Below are positions 45,477-62,752 of a stretch of 64,000 nt of DNA, one piece after another; within the stretch, counting starts at the first letter, position 1, and every line of letters begins with the position of its first letter. Location of the stretch: NCBI GenBank assembly GCA_021205185.1, contig JAJPYB010000010.1:1-64000 (forward strand). The letters run 5' to 3'. Origin of the DNA: Ruminococcus sp. GTDB lineage: Bacteria; Bacillota; Clostridia; Oscillospirales; Ruminococcaceae. The position numbers were made by a program, and so were the translations under genes. A model generated the notes under the pieces. The model was not told the DNA's origin. It saw nothing but the letters and a program-made list of their open reading frames with translations, and did not search any database.

Positions 45477-45638
45477 TTTACTAAGTCGAATGATAATAGT
45501 TTTTGTTAATAACAGTCGTTTTACCAACTTTTTACAATGAGTTTACACATAACTTTCACACTTTGCTTGACTAATTAACAAAGTAGAGTGGTAATATGAC
45601 TATGCTACAATAAAAGGATTAAATGCGGAGGTGGCAAA

Positions 45639-47837: not shown

Positions 47838-49598
47838 ATGTTTCAAGTGAAATGGATGTGGGAGAACCTGAGGGGCTATCGGGCAAGGTACATTATTGCA
47901 ATGATACTGTCCGTTGCGATTAACGGACTGGAGCTTGCAACGCCTATTTTGTCGGCCCTGATAGTTGATAATTTTATCAGCGCAGAAAACGCTGTAGAAA
48001 ATGTCAAGAACCAGCGAGGGTATCTTATTTTTCTCCTGGTAGCTATAGTCTTGTTCACAGTTTTAAAGTCGATAACGAGATATGTTTGCTGTATGTCTTA
48101 TGAGCACGCTTCACAGGGAGCTATTTATCGTATACGCTCGAAGCTTTTCAGAAATGTTCAGAATCAGGATATAAGCTTTTACGACAGCTATCGGACGGGC
48201 GATCTTATGACAAGACTTACAGGCGACCTTGATATGGTTCGCCATATGCTAGCGTTTGTATTCAGAGGCTTGATTGAATCGTCAACGCTTCTTCTGGCGG
48301 CAGTAGTGTATTTCTTTGTGATCGACTGGAAGATGGCAATAAGTATTCTTGCTTTAACGCCGCTCATATTTATAATTTCTGTACGCCTTAAAAAGGTTGC
48401 TGGTCCTGTTCATATGAAGGCTCGTGAAAAGCTGTCTGCAATCAACACGGCAGCTCAGGAAAACATCTCAGGAAACAGGGTCGTAAAGGCTTTCGCAAGA
48501 GAAGATTACGAGATTGAAAAGTTTAACAAAATAAGCGAGGAGTATGCTGAGGCTAATAAGAAGGCGTCGCTCAAGTGGCTTAACTACTCGCCGTTTCTTG
48601 AAGGAATTGCGCTTTGCCTATCCGCTGTAATGCTTTTGTGCGGCGGACTGTTTCTGATATTTGATCAGATTACAATGGGTGAATACATAGCAGTTTCGGG
48701 ACTTGTATGGGCAGTATCAAACCCGATGAAAAATCTCGGAATGTATGTAAACGACACCCAGAGATTTATGGCGTCGGCTATGAAGATAATTGACATTTAC
48801 TATAAAAAGCCGACAATCAAAACGCCTGAAAACGCTTATGAGCCGAGCAGCGTTAATGGAGATATAGAATTTAAAAACGTATCTTTTAGATACGACGGAG
48901 CGGACGTTTTAAAGGACGTAACATTTAGGATAAACCATGGCGAAACTGTCGCTGTTATGGGCGAAACGGGAAGCGGAAAGACAACGCTAGTAAATCTTAT
49001 TCCGAGATTTTACGATGTGAGTAAGGGAAGCGTTTCGGTTGACGGAGTAGATGTTAAGAATTATTCTCTGAAGTCGCTTCGTGGAAGCATTTCAATGGCG
49101 ACGCAGGACGTGTTCCTGTATTCGGACACTATTGACGGAAATATAGCCTACGGCGATTCAGACCTGCCTGAGCAGGAGGTTGAGGAGTACGCGTCGCTCG
49201 CTTGCGCTACTGAATTTATCGAAAAGATGCCTGAGGGGTACGATACGATAATAGGCGAGCGAGGAGTTGGACTTTCAGGCGGACAGAAGCAAAGAATTTC
49301 ACTCGCAAGAGCAATGGCAGTTCGTCCGAGTATTTTAATTCTGGACGACACTACCTCAGCTGTTGATATGGAAACTGAAAGCTATATACAAAACAGCCTC
49401 AAAAGCTTGGATTACGATTGCACAAAAATAATTATAGCGCAGAGAATCTCGTCAGCGAAGGACGCAGATAAGATAATTGTTTTAGACGACGGAAAGATTA
49501 AGGAGATGGGAACTCATCAAGAGCTTTTAAAGAAGAAGGGCTACTATTACGATGTGTTTATGCTTCAGAACGAGGGCTTTGAAAGGGGTGAGAAATAG
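47838..49598 (+). CDS. Heterodimeric ABC exporter subunit with degenerate ATP site
   Basis: The 586-aa half-transporter has six membrane helices and an ATPase domain. Walker A is GETGSGKTTLV, the signature SGGQKQRISLARAM, but Walker B reads ILILDDTTSAVD with Asp in place of the catalytic Glu, and the switch loop is IIIAQR with Gln in place of His. This matches the degenerate-site subunit of heterodimeric multidrug exporters such as TM287/288, LmrCD and BmrCD. Its stop overlaps the start of the partner by one base. ATG 47838 follows GGGAGAGG. Probably exports drugs or peptides; substrate unknown. Confidence 0.92.
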   Translation: MFQVKWMWENLRGYRARYIIAMILSVAINGLELATPILSALIVDNFISAENAVENVKNQRGYLIFLLVAIVLFTVLKSITRYVCCMSYEHASQGAIYRIRSKLFRNVQNQDISFYDSYRTGDLMTRLTGDLDMVRHMLAFVFRGLIESSTLLLAAVVYFFVIDWKMAISILALTPLIFIISVRLKKVAGPVHMKAREKLSAINTAAQENISGNRVVKAFAREDYEIEKFNKISEEYAEANKKASLKWLNYSPFLEGIALCLSAVMLLCGGLFLIFDQITMGEYIAVSGLVWAVSNPMKNLGMYVNDTQRFMASAMKIIDIYYKKPTIKTPENAYEPSSVNGDIEFKNVSFRYDGADVLKDVTFRINHGETVAVMGETGSGKTTLVNLIPRFYDVSKGSVSVDGVDVKNYSLKSLRGSISMATQDVFLYSDTIDGNIAYGDSDLPEQEVEEYASLACATEFIEKMPEGYDTIIGERGVGLSGGQKQRISLARAMAVRPSILILDDTTSAVDMETESYIQNSLKSLDYDCTKIIIAQRISSAKDADKIIVLDDGKIKEMGTHQELLKKKGYYYDVFMLQNEGFERGEK

Positions 49599-51385
49599 TG
49601 GCAAGAAACAAGTATAATGTAGACGAGGTGCTTGAAACCCCATTTGATATAAAGCACTTAAAGAGATCGTTCAAGTATATTAAAAAGCACGGCAGAAAGA
49701 TGATTCTTGCGCTTGTTTTAAGTATTCTGTCTGCTGTTTCAGGACTTTTAGGACCTATCATCACTCAGTACGCACTCGATATAACTATTCCTAAAGGTAA
49801 GGCCGGAGTTTTAGAGCTTATAGGCTTGTCAATCCTTTTGATTGCAACTATTTTGATTTCCGTTATTTTTTCAAATATCCGTTCGAGGATTATGACGATA
49901 GTAGGTCAGGATATAATTTTTGAAATAAGAACCGACCTGTTCAAGCATTTGCAGGAGCTGCCGTTTGAGTATTACGACAACAGACCGCATGGAAAGATAC
50001 TTATTCGTGTTGTCAACTATGTAAATTCCGTTTCGGATATGCTTTCAAATGGACTGATAAACCTAGTGATTGAGCTTTTAAATATGATCTTTATCTTGAT
50101 ATTTATGTTCTTTGTAAATGTTGAGCTGTCGTTGGTAGTGCTGGCGGGAGTGCCGATATTTTTAGTTGTAATGCTCATCATCAAAAAGGTTCAGCGCAAG
50201 GCTTGGCAGATGGTTTCCAACAAAAGCTCAAACCTGAACGCATATTTGCAGGAAAGCATTACGGGAGCCAGAATCACTCAAGTGTTCAACCGTGAGGATG
50301 AGAACGCTGAGATTTTGGATAACCTTTCAGATTCTTACAGAAAAACATGGCTTAAGGCGGTAAAGTATTCAAATATGGTAGGACCGTCTGCCGATGTTAT
50401 TTCTATTGTCGTTCGTATGGCGATATACGGAGTAGGCTTGCTTATAATATCGCCGGCGTACATAACATTAGGAACGATAGCCGCTATGACAAGCTACGCT
50501 TCAAGCTTCTGGCAGCCAATTATGAATCTGTCAAATATCTTTAACGATTTTATAAATAATATAGCCTACCTTGAACGTATTTTTGAAACGCTTGACGAAC
50601 CGCCCACGATAAAGGACAAGGAGGGAGCTTATGAGCTTCCGAAAATAAAGGGAAATGTTTCGTTTGAAAACGTCACGTTTTCTTACGAGCCTGAAAAAAC
50701 CGTTCTGGAAAACGTTTCCTTTGATGTAAAGTCGGGCGAGAGCATAGCGCTTGTCGGACCTACCGGAGCCGGAAAGTCAACGATTGTTTCGCTTATTTCA
50801 AGATTTTACGAGCTTGACGGGGGGAAAATTACAATTGACGGAAACGATATTTCTGAGGTAACGCTTCATTCGCTTCGTTCGCAAATGGGAATAATGCTAC
50901 AGGACAGCTTTATTTTCAGCGGAACTATTTTAGATAATGTCCGCTACGGAAAGCTTGACGCAGAGCCAGAGGAAATAAAGAAGGCGTGCGAGGTTGTCTG
51001 CGCTTCTGAATTTATCGAAGCTATGCCAAATGGATATATGACTGAGGTAAACGAGCGAGGATCTATGCTTTCGGGAGGGCAAAAGCAGCTTATTTCATTT
51101 GCGAGAACTCTTTTGTCAGATCCTAAAATACTTATTCTCGATGAAGCTACCTCGTCGATTGACGCTCGAACTGAAAGACTTTTGCAGGAGGGACTTTTCA
51201 GACTTATGGAGGGAAGAACGAGCTTTATTATCGCTCACAGACTTTCAACCATTAAAAACTGCGACAGGATAATGTACATAGACGATAAGGGAATTGTCGA
51301 GAGCGGAACTCACGACGAGCTTATAGAAAAACGAGGGGAATATTATAAGCTGTACACTTCACAGCATGAAGAATATGCGGGGTAA
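49598..51385 (+). CDS. Heterodimeric ABC exporter subunit with canonical ATP site
   Basis: The 595-aa partner has six membrane helices and an intact ATPase domain: GPTGAGKSTIVSLI, LSGGQKQLISFARTLL, LILDEATSSID with the catalytic Glu, and IIAHRLSTI with the switch His. GTG 49598 overlaps the last base of the upstream stop (TAGTG). The asymmetric pairing with the upstream subunit is complete. The GH5 dockerin gene starts 28 nt later without an intervening terminator, so read-through into the cellulase gene is possible. Confidence 0.93.
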   Translation: MARNKYNVDEVLETPFDIKHLKRSFKYIKKHGRKMILALVLSILSAVSGLLGPIITQYALDITIPKGKAGVLELIGLSILLIATILISVIFSNIRSRIMTIVGQDIIFEIRTDLFKHLQELPFEYYDNRPHGKILIRVVNYVNSVSDMLSNGLINLVIELLNMIFILIFMFFVNVELSLVVLAGVPIFLVVMLIIKKVQRKAWQMVSNKSSNLNAYLQESITGARITQVFNREDENAEILDNLSDSYRKTWLKAVKYSNMVGPSADVISIVVRMAIYGVGLLIISPAYITLGTIAAMTSYASSFWQPIMNLSNIFNDFINNIAYLERIFETLDEPPTIKDKEGAYELPKIKGNVSFENVTFSYEPEKTVLENVSFDVKSGESIALVGPTGAGKSTIVSLISRFYELDGGKITIDGNDISEVTLHSLRSQMGIMLQDSFIFSGTILDNVRYGKLDAEPEEIKKACEVVCASEFIEAMPNGYMTEVNERGSMLSGGQKQLISFARTLLSDPKILILDEATSSIDARTERLLQEGLFRLMEGRTSFIIAHRLSTIKNCDRIMYIDDKGIVESGTHDELIEKRGEYYKLYTSQHEEYAG

Positions 51386-51413
51386 ACACCGTTATGCCAA
51401 AAAGGAGGATACT

Positions 51414-53192
51414 ATGAAGGCTTTAAAATCTTTGCTGAGCGTATTTTCAGCAGCAGCAATCACCGCAGGAATCGCCTGCTCGTCGCTTACGTTTACAAGC
51501 AGCGTTTCAGCTTCCGACGACGGCGTTATGAGAGAGGGTTTGACTGCAACGCAGGTGTCTCAGGAGATGGGACTGGGCTTAAATCTCGGAAACACAATGG
51601 AAGCTTACAACTCGTCGAACTGCGAGAGCGCAAGCTATACCTGGATTCCGACTATCGGAAGCAATAAAACATCTAATTACGAAACCTACTGGGGAGCGCC
51701 GGTTACCACACAGAAAATAATTGACGGAATCAAGGACGCTGGATTTAACACGGTAAGAATTCCTGTTTTCTGGGGAAATATGATGGAAAACGACGGCACC
51801 TATACAATCAATTCCGACTACATAAAGAGAGTAGGCGAGATTGTTGATTACTGCCGCAATGACGGACTTTATGTTGTTATCAACATTCACCACTTCGATG
51901 AATTTATCATAAGGCGAAACGATTTGGAAAGCTGCAAAACGATTTTCTATACCCTTTGGACTCAGATTGCCGAATATTTCAAGGACTACTCGGATTATCT
52001 GGTATTTGAAGGATATAACGAGTACCTTGGCGGAGAGCAGTTTGACGAAAACGGAAATCTGACAGCTCTTTCTGACGCTGACGCTTACGAGCTTACCAAT
52101 GCTCTTAATCAGGTGTTTGTTGACGCTGTAAGAGCAACGGGCGGCAATAATACCCAGAGAGTTTTAATTGCTTCTGGCTATTGGACAAATATTGACCTGA
52201 CTACTTCCTCGAGCTTTAAAATGCCGACGGACACGGTGGATAACAAGCTAATGGTTTCAGTTCACTATGTTGACAACGCAGTATACTGGTCGAACGAAAT
52301 AGGAAGCGATTGGTGGATGCAGTATAGCATAAATCAATGCGAGGAGCTAAAGAGCGCATTTACCGATAAGGGAATACCTGTATTTATTGGCGAAACAACG
52401 TCTACTTATCCAACGAGCAATTATTCATCCAGCGCTACAAGCAAAAACAGCGCCGAAACGCTTGATACAATGCTAAGGCTTATCACAAGCTACGGCTTTA
52501 CACCGGTTTTATGGGATACGCCAAATAGCTTTTACAGCAGAACAAGCTGCTCTATAAAGTCGTCCTCAAATGCAGCTGTAATTTCTACTCTTTCAGCTGA
52601 GCTTGAAGCGGCTTTGGAAACGTCAACGGAGGAATCAACGGAGGAATCGACAGAAGAACCAACCACGGAGGAACCAACAACGGAAGAACCTACAACCGAA
52701 GAGCCTACTACGGAGGAATCAACCACCGAAGAGCCGACAACAGAGGAGCCTGCTGCAATCTATTCTGTCAGCGGAACAGTTTTCGTATCTGATGAAGGTG
52801 CTGAAACTCAGATGATAGTTGTTGCGACTGACGAAAACGGTGAACAAACGGCAGTTACGGCTACAAGCATGGGCGAATATGTAATAGACGGCTTGGAAGC
52901 AGGAACATATACGCTCACCATAAGCGGCGGAAGGTACGCGTCAAGAAGCTATGAAGTAACAGTTTCTGAAAGCCTTTCACAGGACGTTTACTTAAATCCT
53001 TACGGCGATGTAAACGGCGACGGAAAGGTGACGACAGCTGACGTCGGACTTAGCAATTCACACGCAAAGGGAGTTTCAACACTTACTGACTATCAATATA
53101 TTTGTGCCGACGTAAATACTGACGGCGGCATAACGACAGCAGACGTCGGAAAGATAAATTCACACGCAAAGGGCGTTAGTCTGCTTTGGTAG
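51414..53192 (+). CDS. GH5 endoglucanase with type I dockerin (cellulosomal)
   Basis: The 592-aa secreted protein has a signal peptide (LLSVFSAAAITAGIACSSLTFTSSVSAS), a GH5 catalytic domain (GLNLGNTMEAY, VRIPVFWGNM, VVINIHHFDE, acid/base Glu in VFEGYNEYLGG near residue 200, nucleophile Glu in VFIGETTSTYP near 325), a Thr/Glu-rich linker (EEPTTEEPTTEE), a carboxypeptidase-regulatory-like beta domain (SVSGTVFVSD to SQDVYL), and a C-terminal dockerin with two calcium repeats (GDVNGDGKVTTADVG and ADVNTDGGITTADVG). The dockerin should plug into a scaffoldin cohesin. ATG 51414 follows AAAGGAGG; the track start is 16 residues too long. A paralogue follows. Confidence 0.92.
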   Translation: MKALKSLLSVFSAAAITAGIACSSLTFTSSVSASDDGVMREGLTATQVSQEMGLGLNLGNTMEAYNSSNCESASYTWIPTIGSNKTSNYETYWGAPVTTQKIIDGIKDAGFNTVRIPVFWGNMMENDGTYTINSDYIKRVGEIVDYCRNDGLYVVINIHHFDEFIIRRNDLESCKTIFYTLWTQIAEYFKDYSDYLVFEGYNEYLGGEQFDENGNLTALSDADAYELTNALNQVFVDAVRATGGNNTQRVLIASGYWTNIDLTTSSSFKMPTDTVDNKLMVSVHYVDNAVYWSNEIGSDWWMQYSINQCEELKSAFTDKGIPVFIGETTSTYPTSNYSSSATSKNSAETLDTMLRLITSYGFTPVLWDTPNSFYSRTSCSIKSSSNAAVISTLSAELEAALETSTEESTEESTEEPTTEEPTTEEPTTEEPTTEESTTEEPTTEEPAAIYSVSGTVFVSDEGAETQMIVVATDENGEQTAVTATSMGEYVIDGLEAGTYTLTISGGRYASRSYEVTVSESLSQDVYLNPYGDVNGDGKVTTADVGLSNSHAKGVSTLTDYQYICADVNTDGGITTADVGKINSHAKGVSLLW

Positions 53193-53227: not shown

Positions 53228-53256
53228 TAGACAAACTCAAAGCTATATGCTACAAT
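53228..53256 (+). promoter_or_regulatory. Promoter of the second GH5 gene
   Basis: TAGACA and TACAAT are 17 bp apart, about 35 bp before the start. Confidence 0.6.
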
Positions 53257-53290
53257 GGGTGTAGGAATTAAAAATCAGAGGAGGAAAACA

Positions 53291-54514
53291 ATGAAGAAAT
53301 TTAAAAAAGCGTTTTTAAGCCTTTTGCTTGCGGCGGCAGTATTAGCGACCAGCGCTTGCTCGTCGACAGGTGATAACGACAGCACAGCAGATTCTGACAA
53401 CGAAACAGTCGCAGACGACGGCGTTATGCGTGAGGATCTGACTGCAACGCAGGTTTCTGAGGAAATGGGACTTGGACTAAATCTTGGAAACACAATGGAA
53501 GCTTACAGCTCGTCAAACTGCGAGAGTGTAGACTATACCTGGATTCCGACAATAGGAGATAACACACCGACAGATTATGAAACCTGCTGGGGCGCGCCGG
53601 TTACCACTCAGGAAATGATTGACGGAATCAAGGACGCTGGCTTTAACACAGTAAGAATCCCTGTTTTCTGGGGAAATATGATGGAGGACGACGGAACCTA
53701 TACGATAAATTCCGATTACATAGAGCGTGTCGGTGAAATCGTTGACTATTGTCGTAACGACGGACTTTATGTTGTTATCAACATTCACCACTTCGATGAA
53801 TTTATCATAAGGCGAAACGATTTAGAAAGCTGTAAGACAATTTTCAATACATTGTGGATGCAGATTGCCGAATATTTCAAGGACTACTCAGACTATGTGG
53901 TATTCGAGGGCTTTAACGAGTATCTTGGCGGCGATCAGTTTGACGAGAGTGGAACGCTGACATCTCTTTCAACCTCCGACGCTTACGAGCTTACAAATGC
54001 GCTCAATCAGGTGTTCGTTGACGCTGTAAGAGCGACGGGCGGCAACAACGAGGAGAGAGTTTTAATCGCATCTGGTTATTGGACAAATATCGACCTAACG
54101 ACCTCTTCAAAATTTGAAATGCCAACAGATACAGTGGATAACAAGCTAATGGTTTCAGTTCACTATGTAGACAACTCGGTTTATTGGTCAAACGAGATAG
54201 GCAGCGATTGGTGGCTTGAATATAGCATAGAGCAATGCGAGGAGCTAAAGAGCGCATTCACCGACAACGGCATACCTGTATTTATCGGCGAAACAACCTC
54301 GTCATATCCGATTTCAAATTATTCTTCAAGCGCTACAAGCACCGACAGCTCGGAATCTCTTGATACAATGTTAAGGCTTATCACAAGCTACGGCTTTACA
54401 CCGGTTTTGTGGGATACGCCAAACGGCTTTTACGACAGAGATGCCTGTGAGATTACGTCATCAACCGACGCTGAGGTTATAGCGACCTTATCTTCCGAGC
54501 TTGCAGAAGACTAA
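53291..54514 (+). CDS. GH5 endoglucanase, membrane-anchored lipoprotein
   Basis: The 407-aa protein begins with a lipoprotein signal peptide (FLSLLLAAAVLATSACSS, lipobox LATSAC), followed by an acidic spacer and then the same GH5 domain as its neighbour: GLNLGNTMEAYSS, VVINIHHFDE, acid/base Glu in VFEGFNEYLGG, nucleophile Glu in VFIGETTSSYP. There is no linker, beta domain or dockerin. It therefore would work at the cell surface, while the paralogue works in the cellulosome. A 65-nt stretch is identical between the two genes, including silent positions. ATG 53291 follows AGGAGG. The likely substrate is a beta-1,4-glucan. Confidence 0.92.
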   Translation: MKKFKKAFLSLLLAAAVLATSACSSTGDNDSTADSDNETVADDGVMREDLTATQVSEEMGLGLNLGNTMEAYSSSNCESVDYTWIPTIGDNTPTDYETCWGAPVTTQEMIDGIKDAGFNTVRIPVFWGNMMEDDGTYTINSDYIERVGEIVDYCRNDGLYVVINIHHFDEFIIRRNDLESCKTIFNTLWMQIAEYFKDYSDYVVFEGFNEYLGGDQFDESGTLTSLSTSDAYELTNALNQVFVDAVRATGGNNEERVLIASGYWTNIDLTTSSKFEMPTDTVDNKLMVSVHYVDNSVYWSNEIGSDWWLEYSIEQCEELKSAFTDNGIPVFIGETTSSYPISNYSSSATSTDSSESLDTMLRLITSYGFTPVLWDTPNGFYDRDACEITSSTDAEVIATLSSELAED

Positions 54515-54590: not shown

Positions 54591-55646
54591 TTATTTCGGC
54601 AAAACAACGGTAAATGTTGTTTTGCCGTTTTCACATTCCACTGTTATTTTGCCGTTATGCAAATCAACCACCTTTTTTACAACCGCCAGTCCGATTCCGT
54701 TGCCTTCCGATGAGTGGGATTCATCAGCCTGATAGAATTTATTGAATATTCTGTCAATACTTTCTTTCGGTATGATCTTACCGCCGTTTGAAATTGCAAC
54801 AGAAATGCAGTCGTCATTTTCCTGAATATCAACTGAAACTGTGCCGCCGTTGTCTGAAAATTTCATTGCGTTGTTCAGCAGGTTTATCCACGCCTGTTCC
54901 AAAAGCTCTTTGTTGGCGGTTATTGTGTATTCCGCAAAATTTATATCCAGATTCAAATCCTTTTGCGTCCACATATCTGTAAGCATTAAAATAGCCTGGC
55001 GTATCTGCTCGGAAAGATTGTATTTTGAAACGTTCGTCAATATGCCTTGGTTTTCAACTCTTGTGAGGCTAAGCACGTTATTTGCCATTGACGAAAGCCT
55101 GAGCGATTCGTCTTCGATAACCTTAAGATATTTCTCTTTTTCTTCATCTGAAAGATTGCCGACCTGAAGCATTTTCGCAAACCCTGCAATAGAAACTATC
55201 GGCGTTTTAAATTCATGCGAAAAGTTATTGACAAAGTTATTTCTCAGCTTGTCCATTTGCTCCAGCTCCTCAGCGGCTTTGTTAAAGCTTTTTTCTATAT
55301 CTCGAAAAGTAGGATGTACCGCAATCGGATTGCCGAATTTAATTCTCGTTTTAAAATCACCGTTTGAAAGTCGCTCCAGCTGATTTATAAGCTGATTTAC
55401 AGGTTTCAGAGTGTATTTGCTGGTAAAGAAGGTAATCAAGAATCCCATAATTGCGCTTACCATAGCAATCAGGAAAAGCAATGTACCTCTTGATATATCC
55501 TCCGCCGTACCGATAATATTTAGTCTTAGCAAAATATGTATAACTAAAATACCCAGTCCAACTGTGATACATATTACAACAAAAATGAGTATTGACACCA
55601 ATAATATAAGCGATAAACGCTGTCTGTGTATTTCTTTATTATTCAT
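54591..55646 (-). CDS. Sensor histidine kinase with very short extracellular loop
   Basis: The 351-aa kinase has two membrane helices (LILLVSILIFVVICITVGLGILVIHILL and LLFLIAMVSAIMGFLITFFTS) with only about a dozen residues between them, so it probably senses within the membrane or through another protein. A HAMP linker follows, then the H-box FVNNFSHEFKTPIVSIAGFAKML (phospho-acceptor His), the N-box WINLLNNAMKFS, and the G boxes GNGIGLAVVKKVVDLH. It overlaps the response-regulator stop by four bases. The short loop is like kinases that respond to cell-envelope stress. Confidence 0.92.
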   Translation of the reverse strand: MNNKEIHRQRLSLILLVSILIFVVICITVGLGILVIHILLRLNIIGTAEDISRGTLLFLIAMVSAIMGFLITFFTSKYTLKPVNQLINQLERLSNGDFKTRIKFGNPIAVHPTFRDIEKSFNKAAEELEQMDKLRNNFVNNFSHEFKTPIVSIAGFAKMLQVGNLSDEEKEKYLKVIEDESLRLSSMANNVLSLTRVENQGILTNVSKYNLSEQIRQAILMLTDMWTQKDLNLDINFAEYTITANKELLEQAWINLLNNAMKFSDNGGTVSVDIQENDDCISVAISNGGKIIPKESIDRIFNKFYQADESHSSEGNGIGLAVVKKVVDLHNGKITVECENGKTTFTVVLPK

Positions 55647-56317
55647 ATATTTTTAACCGCCCTGTATCCGAGACCTCGCACAGTCTCTATTGTAAACTCC
55701 TTCCAGTCCTCAAATCTCTTGCGGAGCCGTCCGATGTGTACTGTAACCGTTTCCCAGCCTGTTTCGCTGTCCATTCCCCAGATTTCGTCCATAAGCTGAA
55801 TGCGAGTGAAAATCTTTCCGGGATAGGAAAGAAGCTTGTACAGCAGCAAAAATTCCTTTTGCGGAAGCTCTTGCACCTCGCCCTGTCTTGAAACTGTTAA
55901 TGTGTTGTAATCGAGAGTGACATCACCGATTATTATTTTTTGCTCGTTTACGATTTGCGCTCTACGCAAAAGAGCTTTGATACGATAAAGCAGCTTTTCC
56001 TCGTCAATCGGCTTTGTTATGTAGTCGTCTGTACCGACTATAAAGCCCTGCTTTTCGTCCTCCGGCAGGATTTTAGCAGTCAGCATCAAAACAGGAATTG
56101 TACTTCCTGAATCTCTGACGACTTTTGTAAATTCATATCCGTCCATTTTCGGCATCATAATATCGATAATTACAAGGTCTATATGCTCCCTGTCCAGCAC
56201 CTCAAGCGCTTGTTCTCCGTTTTCGGCAGTAATAACCTCATAATTTGCGTTTTGCAAAATTGCTCTCAGAAGCATTCTTGTGTGCTTGTCGTCGTCTGCT
56301 ACAAGAATATTAACCAT
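55643..56317 (-). CDS. OmpR-family response regulator
   Basis: The 224-aa regulator has a receiver domain (ILVADDDKHTRMLL; phospho-acceptor Asp in VIIDIMMPKMDG; Thr and Lys in MLTAKILPEDEKQGF and DDYITKPID) and an OmpR/PhoB winged helix (LPQKEFLLLYKLLSYPGKIFTRIQLMDEIWG, VTVHIGRLRKRFEDW, TVRGLGYRAVKNI). ATG 56317 follows AAAGGAG; the track's TTG 56326 is too close. It overlaps the kinase gene, the usual co-expressed pair. Direct repeats of OmpR type lie on both divergent promoters, so it should regulate itself and the patatin-KS operon. Confidence 0.93.
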   Translation of the reverse strand: MVNILVADDDKHTRMLLRAILQNANYEVITAENGEQALEVLDREHIDLVIIDIMMPKMDGYEFTKVVRDSGSTIPVLMLTAKILPEDEKQGFIVGTDDYITKPIDEEKLLYRIKALLRRAQIVNEQKIIIGDVTLDYNTLTVSRQGEVQELPQKEFLLLYKLLSYPGKIFTRIQLMDEIWGMDSETGWETVTVHIGRLRKRFEDWKEFTIETVRGLGYRAVKNI

Positions 56318-56350
56318 AAAAGACAACTCCTTTGACTGTTTTGTACAAGT

Positions 56351-56382
56351 ATCATAATACGTAAATCTAAAATGAATCTAAA
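56351..56382 (-). promoter_or_regulatory. Two-component operon promoter with 11-bp direct repeats
   Basis: On the plus strand ATCTAAA occurs at 56365 and again at 56376, exactly 11 bp apart (on minus, TTTAGAT twice). The minus -10 TATGAT is at 56351-56356 and the -35 position falls inside the repeats. OmpR-type regulators bind such head-to-tail 11-bp repeats. Confidence 0.65.
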
Positions 56383-56487
56383 CAAACAGAAATCTGCCTG
56401 ACTATACTATAAATTATAGAATTTTGATTTTTCATTGTCAACTCACACAAACGAAAGTTTTGGAAAAGCCCCGTAAATTTCTCCAAA

Positions 56488-56520
56488 GTTTAGATTGAGT
56501 TTAGAATCCGTTAATATACT
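56488..56520 (+). promoter_or_regulatory. Patatin-KS operon promoter with 11-bp direct repeats
   Basis: GTTTAGA occurs at 56488 and 56499, 11 bp apart. It is the same word as in the divergent promoter read on the other strand. The -10 TATACT is at 56515-56520 and the -35 position lies in the repeats, with no normal -35 hexamer. This is the layout of a promoter activated by an OmpR-type regulator. Confidence 0.68.
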
Positions 56521-56580
56521 AAGTACATAAGATAACCGACAAATTTCGACAAAATGTCTTAAATGAGATGAGGTAATGGT

Positions 56581-57432
56581 ATGTGCAAGGTAGGTTTGGT
56601 TTTGGAGGGCGGCGCAAGTCGTGGTATATTTACGGCTGGCGTGCTTGACTATCTGCTGGAGCAGGATATTTCATTTCCGTATGTTATAGGCGTATCCGCC
56701 GGAAGCGGAAATGCGTCTGGCTTTGTTTCAAAGCAGATTGGCAAATTCAAGGAGCTTCTTTCAAAGGAAACCGACCCTTATTTCGGACTGGGTCAAATGA
56801 GGTACAGCAAAAAGCTGCTTGATACCGATAGTATGATAAACAGCTATTTTTACAAGCGCACGCCTTTTGATTTTGATACCTTTTACGCCTCAAAAGCCGA
56901 ATGCGAATTTGTTGTAACCTGCTGTGAAACAGGAAAACCTGAGTACCACGACGCTAAAGCGGCTGAGGAAGGACTTCCGACCTTAACAAAAGCGTCCTGC
57001 TCGATTCCGTTTTTGTGCGAGCCTGTAAAGCTTGGCGACCAGCATTATTTAGACGGAAGTCTTGCGGATTCTGTTCCTGTAAGGCACACTCTTGAAAACA
57101 AATGCGACAAGGCGGTAGTGGTCCTCACAAGAAATTGGATAGAGGAGCCGCCGACCGATTATGCGCGGCTAAAGCCTGCAATAAATATCGAGTACAAAAA
57201 GCAGTATCCACTTCTTGCCGACACGCTTATCAAGCGCAAGAAAAACTACGAAAGGGATATGGAACAGCTGGATAAGTACGAGCGGCAGGGAGCAGCTTAC
57301 ATAATACGTCCTGAGGGAATGGGCGTTAAGCATTTTGAAAAAAGCAGCAAAAAGATTGACGCATATTATAATCACGGGAGGGAGGTCATAAAGTGGCATA
57401 TGAGCGGACTTTGTGACTTTATGTCGTCATGA
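56581..57432 (+). CDS. Patatin-like phospholipase
   Basis: Patatin-type enzymes release fatty acids from phospholipids with a Ser-Asp dyad. The 283-aa protein shows the oxyanion loop LEGGASRGIFTAGVLDYLLEQ, the nucleophile elbow GVSAGSGNASG (GxSxG), and the Asp in YLDGSLADSVP. No signal peptide or membrane helix. It resembles the YjjU/RssA-like bacterial branch. It starts the seven-gene operon and overlaps the next gene by four bases (ATGA). In this context it may cut lipids to free a site for the acyltransferase, or release the product made by the ketosynthase set. Confidence 0.9.
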   Translation: MCKVGLVLEGGASRGIFTAGVLDYLLEQDISFPYVIGVSAGSGNASGFVSKQIGKFKELLSKETDPYFGLGQMRYSKKLLDTDSMINSYFYKRTPFDFDTFYASKAECEFVVTCCETGKPEYHDAKAAEEGLPTLTKASCSIPFLCEPVKLGDQHYLDGSLADSVPVRHTLENKCDKAVVVLTRNWIEEPPTDYARLKPAINIEYKKQYPLLADTLIKRKKNYERDMEQLDKYERQGAAYIIRPEGMGVKHFEKSSKKIDAYYNHGREVIKWHMSGLCDFMSS

Positions 57433-58118
57433 TTAACTCACTTAAAAAGCTTGGTAACGCAATTTTAACCGCACTTATTTATTTGCTTGCCTTTTTACCC
57501 TCGATTTTTATGCGTCTTTTGTATCGAGGACAAGTAAAATACACCGATCCATCCGCAAAGCAAACTATGAAGCAGGGTGCAGTTTTAATTGCCAACCACA
57601 AAAGCCACAAGGACGGATTTTTCATCCCGATGCTGCTTTTCCCACGAAGGGTTTTTGTGCTTGTAACGAGAAAATGGTACGACAAGCGCTTTTTAAAGCC
57701 GTTGTTTGAGCGACTGCCATATATCCCTATCGACCTGACACAGCCTGATGCGTCTTGGATGTCAGCGGCGGAGGAAGCTTTAAAAAAGGGAAAATGCGTG
57801 CTTATATTTCCTGAGGGGAAGCTTGAAAGAAACGGCAAGCACGAGCCATTTAACTCAGGCTTTTTGCTGCCAGTAAAGCATCTGGGCGTCCCGGTAATAC
57901 CAATGGCGATAAAAGGCGACTACCGATTGTTTCATCGTCAGATGCTTGTCGTTGGAAAGCCTGAAAGAATAGAGCTTAACCAAAAAGGCAGACTGTCAGC
58001 TATTTTACATACAGCGTCAGAGCAATGCGAGCGAGAGGTGTTTTGCCTTGCAGAAGAAGCTGATGACGAAAGAAAAAATGAAGAATTGGAAGAATTGATT
58101 GATTCTCCGCTAAGCTAA
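57429..58118 (+). CDS. PlsC-like lysophospholipid acyltransferase
   Basis: PlsC-type enzymes transfer acyl groups from acyl-ACP or acyl-CoA to a lipid hydroxyl. The 229-aa protein has an N-terminal membrane helix (AILTALIYLLAFLPSIFMRLL), the HX4D motif in IANHKSHKDGFF, the substrate motif VLIFPEGKLERNG, and LGVPVIPMAI. It is coupled to the patatin gene by a four-base overlap and followed by an ACP gene after 36 nt. It is therefore a good candidate to load the product made on the ACP onto a lipid. The housekeeping plsC is probably elsewhere. Confidence 0.9.
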   Translation: MINSLKKLGNAILTALIYLLAFLPSIFMRLLYRGQVKYTDPSAKQTMKQGAVLIANHKSHKDGFFIPMLLFPRRVFVLVTRKWYDKRFLKPLFERLPYIPIDLTQPDASWMSAAEEALKKGKCVLIFPEGKLERNGKHEPFNSGFLLPVKHLGVPVIPMAIKGDYRLFHRQMLVVGKPERIELNQKGRLSAILHTASEQCEREVFCLAEEADDERKNEELEELIDSPLS

Positions 58119-58154: not shown

Positions 58155-58409
58155 ATGAATGAACAGGAAATTGCAACAAAAATCCAAAAGATGATTTGCG
58201 AAAAGCTAGGAGTTGATCCGGATGAGCTGGATAACGACGTTCCGCTGTTTGACGACGGAATCGGACTCGATTCTATTGACTCACTTGAAATTATCGCAGG
58301 CATTGACGAAGAGTTTGGCGTTGATATGACGGGCGTAGGAAAAGAACCGTTTTATAACGTAACCAGCCTTGCCGAATATGTCGCAAATGCGCTTGATGCT
58401 GATAAGTAA
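58155..58409 (+). CDS. Acyl carrier protein of the ketosynthase operon
   Basis: The 84-aa acidic helical protein carries a phosphopantetheine Ser in GIGLDSIDSLEII. The DSID form, rather than the DSLD of the housekeeping fatty-acid ACP, is common in specialised carriers such as those of aryl polyene and type II polyketide clusters. ATG 58155 follows GAAAGGAAAG. It lies between a PlsC-like gene and the double ketosynthase, so it should carry the growing chain. No phosphopantetheinyl transferase is in the window. Confidence 0.9.
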   Translation: MNEQEIATKIQKMICEKLGVDPDELDNDVPLFDDGIGLDSIDSLEIIAGIDEEFGVDMTGVGKEPFYNVTSLAEYVANALDADK

Positions 58410-58428
58410 CAAGCGGAAAGGAAATGCT

Positions 58429-60765
58429 ATGACAACAGATAAAAACCGTTGTGTTGTAACCGGCTTAGGACTGATAAGCGCAATAGGCAATAACGTTTCA
58501 CAGTGCTGGCAAAATGCAATAAACGGCATCAGCGGAATTAAAAAAGCAAAAGCTGTTGACACGACAGACTGCTATGCAAATCTTGCCGCTGAGGTTGAGG
58601 ACGAAAGCCTAAACGGCGAAGAAAGCATCAACTGGGTTTCCAGACTATGCATTAAGGCGACTGACGAAGCAATGCAGGACGCTGGTCTCTCAGACTTTGA
58701 TAATTCTCCGAAAGCAGCAGTAATTATGGGTAGCTGTGTAGGAGGCGTGTCAAACGCTGAAAAGTATTACAAAAGCGGCAGGAAGGCAGAATACGTCAGC
58801 GAGATTCCCATTTCGCCAATAGCAAACCACGTAGCAAAAACCTATCACGCAGGCGGCGTTGTTACAAACATTGCGAACGCTTGCGCTGCCGGAACGATAA
58901 GCATAGCTTATGCCTGCGACCTCGTCCGATCAGGAAAAGCGGAGGTTGTAATTGTCGGCGGTGCTGATGCATTGGCGTCTGTTCCGTTTGCAGGCTTTTT
59001 GTCACTCCACGCTCTGGATTCAGAACCCTGCTCGCCTTTTAACAGGTGCGGCGGTATTACTTTAGGCGAGGGTGCAGGTGCGCTTATAATCGAATCCTAC
59101 GAGCACGCAGCAAGGAGACAAGCACATATATACTGCGACGTTTTAGGTTCAGGAGTAAGCAGCGACGCTCATCATATTACCGCACCCAGACCTGACGGAA
59201 AGGGACAGATGTGTGCTATTCGCCGAGCAATAAATAGCTCAGGCATAAATCCTTCTGAGATTGGATATATCAACGCTCACGGCACAGGAACCGCTAAAAA
59301 CGACGAAGCGGAATTTCTGTCACTTCACACAATTTTCGATGAGGAAGGTTCCGATTTATCGGTTTCTTCAACGAAGTCTATGGTAGGACATTGCTTAGGC
59401 GCTGCGGGAGCTATAGAAGCGGTATTTGCAATCAAAGCATTGACTGAGGGGAAAATACCGCCGACAGTAGGATATTCGCAGGAGGATTTATCCCGACTTT
59501 CAGACCGTGCAGGAAAGCTTGATTTTTGTCCGAATTTTGCGAGAGAAAAGTCGCTATCAGCCGTTATGAGCAATTCGTTTGCGTTTGGCGGAAACAACGC
59601 AAGCATTGTGTTTTCTAAAGACGTTGGCAATATAAAAACAAAATCCACTCGAGAGCGAGTATTTATCACAGGAATCGGAATTGTCTCGCCGATAGGAAAC
59701 GGTATGGATAATTACATAGAGAAAACGCTTGCTGAAACTCCGCTTGAATGTGACAGCAATGAAAGCGTAATAGACAAGTCGGATTATGAAAATTGCGGAC
59801 TCAAAAATTCGTTTTGCAGAAAGCTTGATAAGTTCAGCCGTTTGCAGGCGGTATCGGGTATGACAGCTCTTTCAGACGCTAAGCTTATCATTGATGACGA
59901 TAACGCTGAGCAAACAGGCATCGTTGTAGGAACATCGGACGGACCTCTTTCGACAATTTGCGATTATCAGCAGGATCTGGTGAACAAGGGCAATTGTTCA
60001 GGCAGCGCATTTAAGTTCCCGAACACGGTTTACAATGCGGCAGGCGGCTATCTTTCAATTTGCTCTGGTATTCGTGGATATAATGTTACGCTCACAAACG
60101 GCGCACAGTCGGGACTTGAAAGTATTTCTTACGCTGTAAATGTTCTTAACAGCGGAGAAGAAAAAGCTGTACTGGCAACGGGAACTGACGAGAACAGCGA
60201 AATCGTAACCGAGCTTTATAAAAAATCAGGCTATTTTGACAGCGGCAATTTTAAGCTTTCCGACGGCAGCACAACTCTTGTGCTGGAAAGTAATAGTTCT
60301 GTTCTGGAACGTGGCGTAAAGCCTTATGCCGAGGTGCTAGGCTGCGGTACGGCCGATTGTCCTGTGCCGTTTGGTACGCTGTCAGGATCTGGCAAAGCGC
60401 TTGAAAATGCAATAAAGCTTGCTCTTGACGACGCTGGTTTGATAAGTGGTGATATAGACGGCATTGTCGGCTTTGCGAACGGACTTAAAGAGGTCGACAA
60501 AATCGAGAACGAGGCGTTAAAGAATACCTTTGGCGAGAGGACGACGCAAATCCCTGCCTTTAATATTCACAAGGTAACAGGAGAAGGTCGTGCGGCGACA
60601 GCTTGTCTGTCTGCGGCGCACGCAGCGCTTATACTTTCAGGAAGGCTTGGGGAAAGCGTTGAAAGCGAAAATCTGGGTGAGGTCGCAGCTTCAAGGCTAA
60701 ACAAGCTTTTGGTAATTTCTTACGGCAGCGGCGGCGTGTATACGGCAGTTATTATAGCAAGATAA
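58429..60765 (+). CDS. Fused ketosynthase-chain length factor (KS-KS) protein
   Basis: The 778-aa protein contains two ketosynthase folds in one chain. The first (about 1-400) is complete: Cys in VTNIANACAAGTISIAYA, His in INAHGTGTAKND, Lys/His in STKSMVGHCLGAAGA, and the final NSFAFGGNNASIV. The second (about 410-778) begins ERVFITGIGIVSPIGNG but has lost the catalytic residues: the Cys position reads NGAQSG (Cys to Ala), the NAHGTGT position reads GFANGLK, and the GHCLGAAGA position reads TGEGRAATA. A KS followed by a dead KS is the arrangement of ketosynthase and chain-length factor in type II polyketide and aryl polyene systems, but those are normally separate genes. ATG 58429 follows AAAGGAAATG; the track start lies inside the ACP gene. 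Confidence 0.88.
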   Translation: MTTDKNRCVVTGLGLISAIGNNVSQCWQNAINGISGIKKAKAVDTTDCYANLAAEVEDESLNGEESINWVSRLCIKATDEAMQDAGLSDFDNSPKAAVIMGSCVGGVSNAEKYYKSGRKAEYVSEIPISPIANHVAKTYHAGGVVTNIANACAAGTISIAYACDLVRSGKAEVVIVGGADALASVPFAGFLSLHALDSEPCSPFNRCGGITLGEGAGALIIESYEHAARRQAHIYCDVLGSGVSSDAHHITAPRPDGKGQMCAIRRAINSSGINPSEIGYINAHGTGTAKNDEAEFLSLHTIFDEEGSDLSVSSTKSMVGHCLGAAGAIEAVFAIKALTEGKIPPTVGYSQEDLSRLSDRAGKLDFCPNFAREKSLSAVMSNSFAFGGNNASIVFSKDVGNIKTKSTRERVFITGIGIVSPIGNGMDNYIEKTLAETPLECDSNESVIDKSDYENCGLKNSFCRKLDKFSRLQAVSGMTALSDAKLIIDDDNAEQTGIVVGTSDGPLSTICDYQQDLVNKGNCSGSAFKFPNTVYNAAGGYLSICSGIRGYNVTLTNGAQSGLESISYAVNVLNSGEEKAVLATGTDENSEIVTELYKKSGYFDSGNFKLSDGSTTLVLESNSSVLERGVKPYAEVLGCGTADCPVPFGTLSGSGKALENAIKLALDDAGLISGDIDGIVGFANGLKEVDKIENEALKNTFGERTTQIPAFNIHKVTGEGRAATACLSAAHAALILSGRLGESVESENLGEVAASRLNKLLVISYGSGGVYTAVIIAR

Positions 60766-60787: not shown

Positions 60788-61519
60788 ATGAAGGTTGCAG
60801 TTATTACCGGCGCGTCACGAGGAATCGGACGTGCCTGCGCTATAAGACTTGCGGCGGACGGATATACGGTTGTTATAAATTACAGCCATAGCGAGGAGCA
60901 AGCGAAAGAGGCCTTAAACGACATTACAAAAAGCGGCGGAAGCGGTATGACCTGCCGTGCGGACGTTTCCGACTTAAAGGCTGTAAAAGCTATGATGCGA
61001 GAGGTAATAAATACTTACGGACAAATTGACGTGCTTGTAAACAATGCAGGAATTGTAAAGGACGAGTATCTGTTTATGCTAAATAGCGAAACGCTTGACC
61101 GCTGTATGGACATTAACGTCAAGGGATATTTCTATTGCGCTCAGCAGGCGGCGTTAAAAATGTTCCGCAAAAAGAAAGGCGTTATTGTAAATATGTCCTC
61201 CGTAAGCTCTCAGATGGCAATAGCAGGGCAGAGTGTATATAGTGCTACAAAGGGTGCCGTTAATTCTATGACAAGGACTATGGCAAAGGAGCTTGCGCCA
61301 TACGGTATCAGAGTGAATGCGGTAGCCCCGGGATTTATCGAAACGGAAATGATAGATTCAATTCCTGAGGACAAGCGAGAGGAATATTTAAAAGCAATTC
61401 CTTTAGGTCGGCTCGGAAAGGCTGAGGACGTTGCAAACGCAGTATCAATGCTTTGCAGCGATTGCTGCGCCTATATGACAGGGCAAACGCTGGTTTTGGA
61501 CGGAGGTCTTTCGCTATGA
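60788..61519 (+). CDS. 3-ketoacyl-ACP reductase (FabG-like SDR)
   Basis: The 243-aa short-chain dehydrogenase reduces the 3-keto group on ACP with NADPH. Motifs: nucleotide loop GASRGIGRACA, NNAGIVKD, the catalytic Ser in NMSSVSSQMAIAG, Tyr and Lys in VYSATKGAVN, and PGFIETEM. It lies 22 nt after the double ketosynthase and overlaps the dehydratase by four bases (ATGA). Within the operon it supplies the reduction step of each elongation cycle. Confidence 0.93.
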   Translation: MKVAVITGASRGIGRACAIRLAADGYTVVINYSHSEEQAKEALNDITKSGGSGMTCRADVSDLKAVKAMMREVINTYGQIDVLVNNAGIVKDEYLFMLNSETLDRCMDINVKGYFYCAQQAALKMFRKKKGVIVNMSSVSSQMAIAGQSVYSATKGAVNSMTRTMAKELAPYGIRVNAVAPGFIETEMIDSIPEDKREEYLKAIPLGRLGKAEDVANAVSMLCSDCCAYMTGQTLVLDGGLSL

Positions 61520-61962
61520 TGAATATTAAAGATATAAACGAGCGTATTAAACAGCGCCCGCCGTTTCAGATGATTGAACGTGTTACAAAGCTTGTGAGCG
61601 GTGAGTGCGCTGAGGGAATCAAAAATGTTTCAATAAACGAGCCGTACTTTGTGGGACATTTTCCTGATACGCCGATTATGCCGGGAGTTTTAATAATTGA
61701 AAGCTGCGCTCAGCTATGCTCATTGGTGGTTGAAGACGAGCCGTCGGACGATACGCTGTATGTTCTGTTAAAGGTAGGAAATTTTAAATTTCTAAAGCCG
61801 GTAATTCCGGGTGACACTCTTAACATATCAGTTCGTAAAACTCGTGAAGCTGGTACGCTTATATCGTTTGAAGCTACAGCTTGCGTTGACGGACAGGTAA
61901 GAGCAAAGGGAGAGCTGACATTTACCGCCATAGATAAAGCTTCCGTTTACGCTGAAGACTAA
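61516..61962 (+). CDS. FabZ-like 3-hydroxyacyl-ACP dehydratase
   Basis: The 148-aa hotdog-fold protein removes water from 3-hydroxyacyl-ACP. It shows IKQRPPFQMIERV, the catalytic His in YFVGHFPDTPIMPGVL and the acid in LIIESCAQL, then FLKPVIPGDTL. The track adds 21 residues; ATG 61516 lies at the overlapping ATGA of the reductase gene, behind CGGAGG. The operon has ketoreductase and dehydratase but no recognisable enoyl reductase, so the chain may keep double bonds. Confidence 0.92.
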   Translation: MMNIKDINERIKQRPPFQMIERVTKLVSGECAEGIKNVSINEPYFVGHFPDTPIMPGVLIIESCAQLCSLVVEDEPSDDTLYVLLKVGNFKFLKPVIPGDTLNISVRKTREAGTLISFEATACVDGQVRAKGELTFTAIDKASVYAED

Positions 61963-61975
61963 GGAGGAACTGTTA

Positions 61976-62752
61976 ATGAACGAAGAATTAAATGCAGTAT
62001 GGGATAAGACAGAAGAAAAGAAAATACTTGTAATAAACGGCAGCCCACAGGGTAACGCAAGCGGAACTATGCGTGTTACAAACGCATTTTTAAAGGGCAT
62101 TGAGGAAAACTCTCTCTTTAAAACGGAAATTATCACGCTGTCTAAAATGAACATTAAGCCCTGCATGGGTTGCCTTTCCTGTTGGGGAAGAACAGACGGA
62201 GAATGTGTAATCCGTGACGACGATGTTCCAAAGATTAAAAAGAAAATTTTAGATGCGGATGTTGTAATTGCGAGCTTCCCGCTATACTTTTTCGGTATGC
62301 CGGGAACTGTAAAGGTACTCAACGACCGACTTTTAAGCACTATGATGCCGTATCGCGGCGAAAAGGCGGTAGAAGGCGAGCCGTTTCAAGAGTTTCGCTA
62401 TGATTATGATTCAAAAAAATTCCTGTTCGTTTCAACCTGCGGCTTTGGAGAGGTCTTCCCATCGTATAACGCTCTGCTTGCACAGCTTGATTGTATTTTC
62501 GGTAAAGGCGGCTATCAGGCGCTCTTGTGCCCGCAGGGAAAAGTGTTCTCAACACCCGAGCTTGATGAGCGAGTTGATAATTATCTTGAAAAATATACTG
62601 CCGCCGGCAAGGAATTTGCTGAAAACGGCGTAATTGGCGAAAGAACTATAACGTCCCTGCAAAAGCCCATTTTCAACGAGCGAAGATTTAAGCTTCTTAT
62701 AAATGAATTCTGGCGGCAGGAGCGAAAAGCAGGGGGAAGTAACAATAAGTAG
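61976..62752 (+). CDS. NADPH-dependent FMN oxidoreductase / iron-sulfur flavoprotein
   Basis: The 258-aa flavodoxin-fold protein starts with the FMN-binding ILVINGSPQGNASGTMRV, and has a cysteine cluster in KPCMGCLSCWGRTDGECVIRDD, as in iron-sulfur flavoproteins, followed by SFPLYFFGMPGTVKVLNDRLL. The C-terminal part is helical. RBS AAGGAGG lies 13 nt after the FabZ-like stop, so it belongs to the operon. It could act as an unusual reductase on the polyene or keto product or as an electron carrier. It is not homologous to known enoyl reductases by eye. Confidence 0.85.
   Translation: MNEELNAVWDKTEEKKILVINGSPQGNASGTMRVTNAFLKGIEENSLFKTEIITLSKMNIKPCMGCLSCWGRTDGECVIRDDDVPKIKKKILDADVVIASFPLYFFGMPGTVKVLNDRLLSTMMPYRGEKAVEGEPFQEFRYDYDSKKFLFVSTCGFGEVFPSYNALLAQLDCIFGKGGYQALLCPQGKVFSTPELDERVDNYLEKYTAAGKEFAENGVIGERTITSLQKPIFNERRFKLLINEFWRQERKAGGSNNK

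Follow-up and report, generated by a model that had tools for sequence, protein, structure and literature searches.

Direct-repeat boxes in a fixed −10 register on the divergent promoters of a two-component operon and a fused-ketosynthase operon in Ruminococcus sp., probable sites of the adjacent OmpR-type regulator

The window analysed here comprises 64,000 nucleotides of Ruminococcus sp. (contig JAJPYB010000010.1 of assembly GCA_021205185.1, positions 1 to 64,000). Within it, a two-component operon on the reverse strand and a patatin-led operon on the forward strand diverge from the intergenic region 56318-56580. The former begins with a response regulator of 224 amino acids (55643-56317, −) that has relatives in the PDB. 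It combines a receiver domain (Response_reg, PF00072, 107 bits) with a winged-helix domain (Trans_reg_C, PF00486, 72.5 bits), both over the cut-off, as is characteristic of the OmpR/PhoB family. The best NCBIfam model was PhoB with 182.8 bits, under its cut-off of 296.2, and the best 25 models included no enterobacterial PhoP model. By curated models, the regulator is neither PhoP nor PhoB. Directly downstream in the same operon, with overlapping ORF ends, lies the gene of a sensor histidine kinase of 351 amino acids with HAMP, HisKA and HATPase_c domains (54591-55646, −). By visual inspection of its sequence, the kinase has two predicted membrane spans and an outside loop of about 14 residues, and such a short loop fits sensing within the membrane.

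The forward operon encodes a patatin-like phospholipase (56581-57432; Pfam Patatin and DUF6363), a PlsC-type acyltransferase (57429-58118; Pfam Acyltransferase), an acyl carrier protein (58155-58409; Pfam PP-binding) and a ketosynthase fused to a ketosynthase-like, chain-length-factor-like (CLF) protein with two ketoacyl-synt domains (58426-60765). It continues with a FabG-type ketoreductase (60788-61519) and a FabZ-type dehydratase (61519-61962), both assigned by domain and family models, and a flavodoxin-like NAD(P)H/FMN reductase assigned by a domain model (61976-62752). In the second ketosynthase half, the position of the catalytic Cys is read as Ala (NACAAG versus NGAQSG), and the protein is, judged from its sequence, a KS-CLF fusion. 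The operon has a ketoreductase and a dehydratase and is devoid of an enoyl reductase; its product could be a polyene or an unsaturated acyl chain. The fused ketosynthase is rare: it was found in 4 of the 295 genomes at order level and in 13 of the 398 at family level. A celluxanthene-type (cex) pigment cluster was considered as the identity of the operon and rejected, as cex relies on an iterative type I PKS (PMC12144888).

The promoter of the patatin/ketosynthase operon carries the box GTTTAGATTGAGTTTAGA (56488-56505, +), which consists of two 11-bp direct-repeat units. The word GTTTAGA occurs at 56488 and 56499, 11 bp apart, exactly where the first-pass annotation had placed it. On the regulator side, GTTTAGATTCATTTTAGA (56383-56366, −) forms a tandem repeat of period 11. 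Here, the complement word had been reported at 56365 and 56376. The spacing of 11 bp held, and the 7-mer common to both copies is ATCTAAA; the exact reverse complement of GTTTAGA occurs in one copy only, as the copies read GTTTAGA and TTTTAGA on the reverse strand. The −10 hexamers, TATACT (56515-56520, +) and TATGAT (56351-56356, −), both start exactly 27 nt from the first repeat base, with a gap of 11 nt between GTTTA-N6-GTTTA and the hexamer at both promoters. The offset of TATACT from the box start is common to the relatives, and the register of TATGAT is likewise conserved. At the regulator promoter, an overlapping TATTAT three bases before TATGAT offers an alternative reading of the −10 element. 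A good −35 hexamer is absent from both box promoters, as had been claimed, the best call being TTTAGA with 4/6 matches within the regulator-side repeat. Two features of an autoregulated OmpR-type direct-repeat promoter are found here, namely a tandem repeat of 11-bp period in place of the −35 hexamer and a fixed distance to the −10 hexamer. A weak hairpin resembling a terminator lies at 56400-56383 (−) and shows no clear conservation in the related genome G007.

Upstream of the regulator box lies a sigma-A promoter, TTGACA-N17-TATAAT (56413-56441, −), that matches the consensus in 12 of 12 positions. The match is also 12/12 in G007, despite a changed spacer, and amounts to 11/12 and 9/12 in the relatives G333 and G553, respectively. 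The promoter picture is fuller than the one first drawn, with a common −10 register and this second, perfect promoter. The regulator operon is probably also driven constitutively from it, and a constitutive supply combined with a self-activated promoter is the likely logic of the operon. The phoPQ operon is built likewise.

In the proposed mechanism, a head-to-tail dimer of the adjacent OmpR/PhoB-type regulator would bind each repeat, one per divergent promoter. The phosphorylated regulator would occupy the place of the −35 hexamer, 11 nt upstream of the −10 hexamer, and recruit RNA polymerase (class II activation). It would thereby turn on its own operon, as positive autoregulation atop the upstream constitutive sigma-A promoter, as well as the operon for patatin, PlsC, ACP, KS/CLF, KR, DH and reductase. 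From the sequence comparisons given below, we consider it very probable that the adjacent regulator, in its phosphorylated form, binds both boxes and activates both operons in this way.

A first question is whether the repeats could be functionless, since the motif is short and A+T-rich. The 1.75-Mb genome was searched by pattern, a search that the first-pass annotation had proposed. The exact pattern GTTTAGA-N4-GTTTAGA occurs once. When the −10 register was included and up to three mismatches were allowed, the two window sites were the only matches with zero or one mismatch in front of genes and the two best matches in the genome, with the patatin-side box in first and the regulator-side box in second place. 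A third match with one mismatch (C6:99428-99460, −) is placed at the beginning of a GGDEF-EAL gene, runs antisense into a prepilin-peptidase gene and is therefore taken as chance. With a scoring profile built solely from other organisms' loci, the two window sites reached 28.9 and 26.5 bits, while the next best score within the window was 11.1 bits. Beyond the window, profile scores cover the listed pattern matches, among which the best other site reached 20.4 bits; the weak matches C3:62570 and C11:44719 (20.4 and 17.1 bits) fall within genes or on their antisense strand. Over the whole genome, the loose pattern gave 117 matches and its reversed form 174, which is no over-representation. The repeats are therefore not widespread without relation to promoters, a finding that would have counted against the original proposal, although a pattern no commoner than its reverse is also what chance occurrence would give. 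An ABC exporter pair in the window (47838-51385) is of the same kind as exporters boxed in relatives; no in-register box was found there, the best nearby match being at 45530 with three mismatches.

Orthologues of the regulator were gathered from 61 genomes, counting that of the window itself, and from 80 named loci. GTTTA-N6-GTTTA with a −10 hexamer at +27 stands upstream of many of them, and the box tracks the orthologues across many Clostridia and some Paenibacillus. Based on dinucleotide shuffles (p ≤ 0.01), a box was found at the regulator promoter in 16 of 33 distinct upstream regions with a regulator identity of at least 60%, and in 1 of 19 upstream regions with an identity below 40%. 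At about half of the close orthologues, the regulator's own promoter has no significant box, and several of these carry one on a neighbouring unit. In total, 39 in-register matches were obtained in 34 of 63 loci (0.99 Mb), compared with 1-4 matches in the same loci when the motif was reversed or permuted at random (twelve permutations, some of them repeated). Concerning these counts, the consensus was picked after the first few sequences had been seen and the loci were fetched together with the regulator, so that the appropriate controls are the permuted motifs and the alternative offsets within this DNA. After the box, −10-like hexamers were counted 39 times at offset 27 and at most ten times at any other offset. 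Pairs of GTTTA upstream of regulators were spaced by 11 in eight of nine cases. An orthologue of the same genus (71% identity; L006:1076-1744 in G010) contains an in-frame TAA stop and looks like a decaying copy.

Fused-ketosynthase operons were located in G007, G553, G333 and others. The first three of these carry, besides the window, a boxed patatin-led operon, with boxes at L161 234+/125−, L162 8154−/8206+ and L163 3890+/3843−. The patatin-side box of the window is identical in G007 and has counterparts in G553 and G333, and the regulator-side box is kept upstream of the orthologous regulators. In relation to the window, the ketosynthase is 93% and the regulator 96% identical in G007, and the regulator is 81% identical in G553 and 77% in G333. 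The divergent regulator gene lies on the same contig in G553 and G333. In G007, the contig breaks off where the regulator gene begins, and the regulator is located terminally on a different contig (L003, L172); its adjacency to the operon is inferred from the matching contig ends. Thus, four genomes have the regulator gene directly divergent from the patatin/ketosynthase operon, and in each of them both promoters are boxed. A comparison of the window with G007 shows identity at 64 of 66 positions in the two stretches of box plus −10 hexamer and at 86 of 109 in the DNA separating them. This conservation, the register and the paired recurrence in independent genomes make functionless chance repeats a very improbable explanation, one that the comparative evidence would already refute unless all of it were coincidental.

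No in-register box was found at ten ketosynthase loci that are without the regulator in the 8-16 kb read, nor at L173-L175 (about 5 kb each), which are ketosynthase loci taken irrespective of the regulator. In G251, regulator and ketosynthase operon are two genes apart and an in-register box on the operon side is absent, hence box control of the ketosynthase operon is not universal. These loci also bear on whether the boxes might be bound by another OmpR-family regulator, or be shared by several, with the neighbouring regulator merely a target. The genome holds 12 matches to related OmpR-type regulators, and cross-binding of similar repeats is documented for HssR and HitR of Bacillus anthracis (PMC3968170). 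On the other hand, the box follows the orthologues of the adjacent regulator and fades as their identity drops, and ketosynthase operons without the regulator in the stretch read carry no box. We regard binding by a different regulator as quite unlikely. The proposal of the first-pass annotation, in which the adjacent regulator was the natural binder and the ketosynthase operon its direct target, gains strong, if indirect, support from the tracking of orthologues, from the paired boxes in four genomes and from the unboxed ketosynthase operons that had no regulator in the stretch read.

The closest parallel is the PhoP box of Salmonella and E. coli. In its architecture I (phoP, mgtA, slyB, yrbL), (T/G)GTTTA-N5-(T/G)GTTTA in direct orientation replaces the −35 hexamer at a distance of 12 nt from the −10 hexamer, or 11 nt in yrbL; class II activation was shown for mgtA, and the box is present on the phoP promoter as well (PMC3335776). 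The boxes described here resemble it in the GTTTA core, the 11-bp period, the orientation and the −10 distance, with GTTTA-N6-GTTTA placed 11 nt upstream. They differ in the base before GTTTA, which is A instead of T or G. Furthermore, the regulator belongs to another OmpR-family subgroup in Firmicutes with lipid and export targets, and the very short outside loop of the kinase is unlike a PhoQ-type sensor domain. The likeness of the boxes probably reflects convergence or a trait common to the fold; by analogy, the window system would function in the manner of a PhoP-box promoter while not belonging to PhoPQ.

This parallel is of importance for the sign of regulation. With the −35 position taken up by the box, a bound regulator could instead repress one or both operons, and on the regulator side, transcription from the strong upstream promoter crosses the box. 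However, neither box promoter has a usable −35 hexamer of its own, the fixed 11-nt gap is that of PhoP-activated class II promoters, and a mere repressor site would need no single exact register. Repression is therefore considered unlikely, and activation by the phosphorylated adjacent regulator is the reading followed here.

Two further groups of systems are comparable. HssR and HitR of Bacillus, Listeria and Staphylococcus, which respond to heme and envelope stress, are OmpR-type regulators that have a direct repeat in the promoters of transporter genes (PMC3968170, PMC6305404). The window system is similar in its type of regulator and in the direct repeat of its target promoters, a likeness drawn from the published descriptions, but its repeat is GTTTA and not GTTCA. 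Heme genes or an hrtAB-like exporter pair were not noticed directly beside it. PhoB, KdpE and M. tuberculosis PhoP, the latter with 7-bp repeats and a 4-bp spacer (PMC4832192), share the head-to-tail dimer on tandem half-sites with a repeat of about 11 bp, and differ in half-site sequence and regulon. A GTTTA-type box of a Clostridial OmpR regulator was not found described in the open-access literature. The switch itself is of an ordinary kind, while the regulator and its lipid-linked targets seem to be undescribed.

In relatives, in-register boxes stand before further genes. Beside orthologous regulators, they precede DegV-family genes (L005:3236, L037:10788, L042:277) and the genes of the fatty-acid kinase FakA (L050:10759), a YegS-type lipid kinase (L035:8855) and a PlsC-type acyltransferase (L060:2640). 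Others are found before ABC exporters (L039, L040, L047, L094), FtsX-type ABC transporters of 780-800 amino acids (L058, L059, L067, L074) and an HlyD-type protein (L066). Distant relatives, including Paenibacillus, Enterococcus and Sporosalibacterium, carry related in-register repeats beside their regulators, of the GTTCA type in L064, L074, L086 and L093 and of the GTTTA type in L058, L059 and L067. GTTCA-N6-GTTCA-like repeats occur, for example, in Sporosalibacterium, Enterococcus, Amphibacillus and Brevibacillus, and the Enterococcus copy precedes an FtsX-type ABC transporter.

Together with the patatin, PlsC and ketosynthase genes of the window, these boxed genes suggest a membrane-lipid or envelope-stress system, and we infer a membrane-lipid or envelope signal for it. 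More tentatively, the regulator clade may represent a Firmicute system that has been widely transferred and has so far escaped description, with a box of its own, GTTTANWTTCAGTTTA, and a −10 hexamer at +27. It would control membrane-lipid remodelling through FakA, DegV/FakB, the YegS-type lipid kinase, PlsC-type acyltransferase, patatin, the KS-CLF lipid or polyene operon and ABC exporters. The signal of its short-loop kinase would be a lipid or a membrane-active compound, perceived within the membrane. This broader picture is possible, though on the doubtful side.

For a two-component system of gut Clostridia that is as yet uncharacterised, the boxes provide a well-defined candidate binding site and a set of candidate targets; they also offer a likely switch for the fused-ketosynthase operon. 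Because the box keeps one exact −10 distance, regulon members should be predictable by sequence alone in any genome carrying the regulator. The nature of the targets points towards a lipid or envelope-stress signal.

Beyond the kinase gene, two closely similar cellulase-like genes (GH5-like, by reading) lie in tandem at 51366-53192 and 53255-54514. The product of the first has a dockerin-like C-terminus and a repeat linker rich in Thr, Glu and Pro; that of the second has neither and is lipoprotein-like. The pair is apparently a recent duplication.
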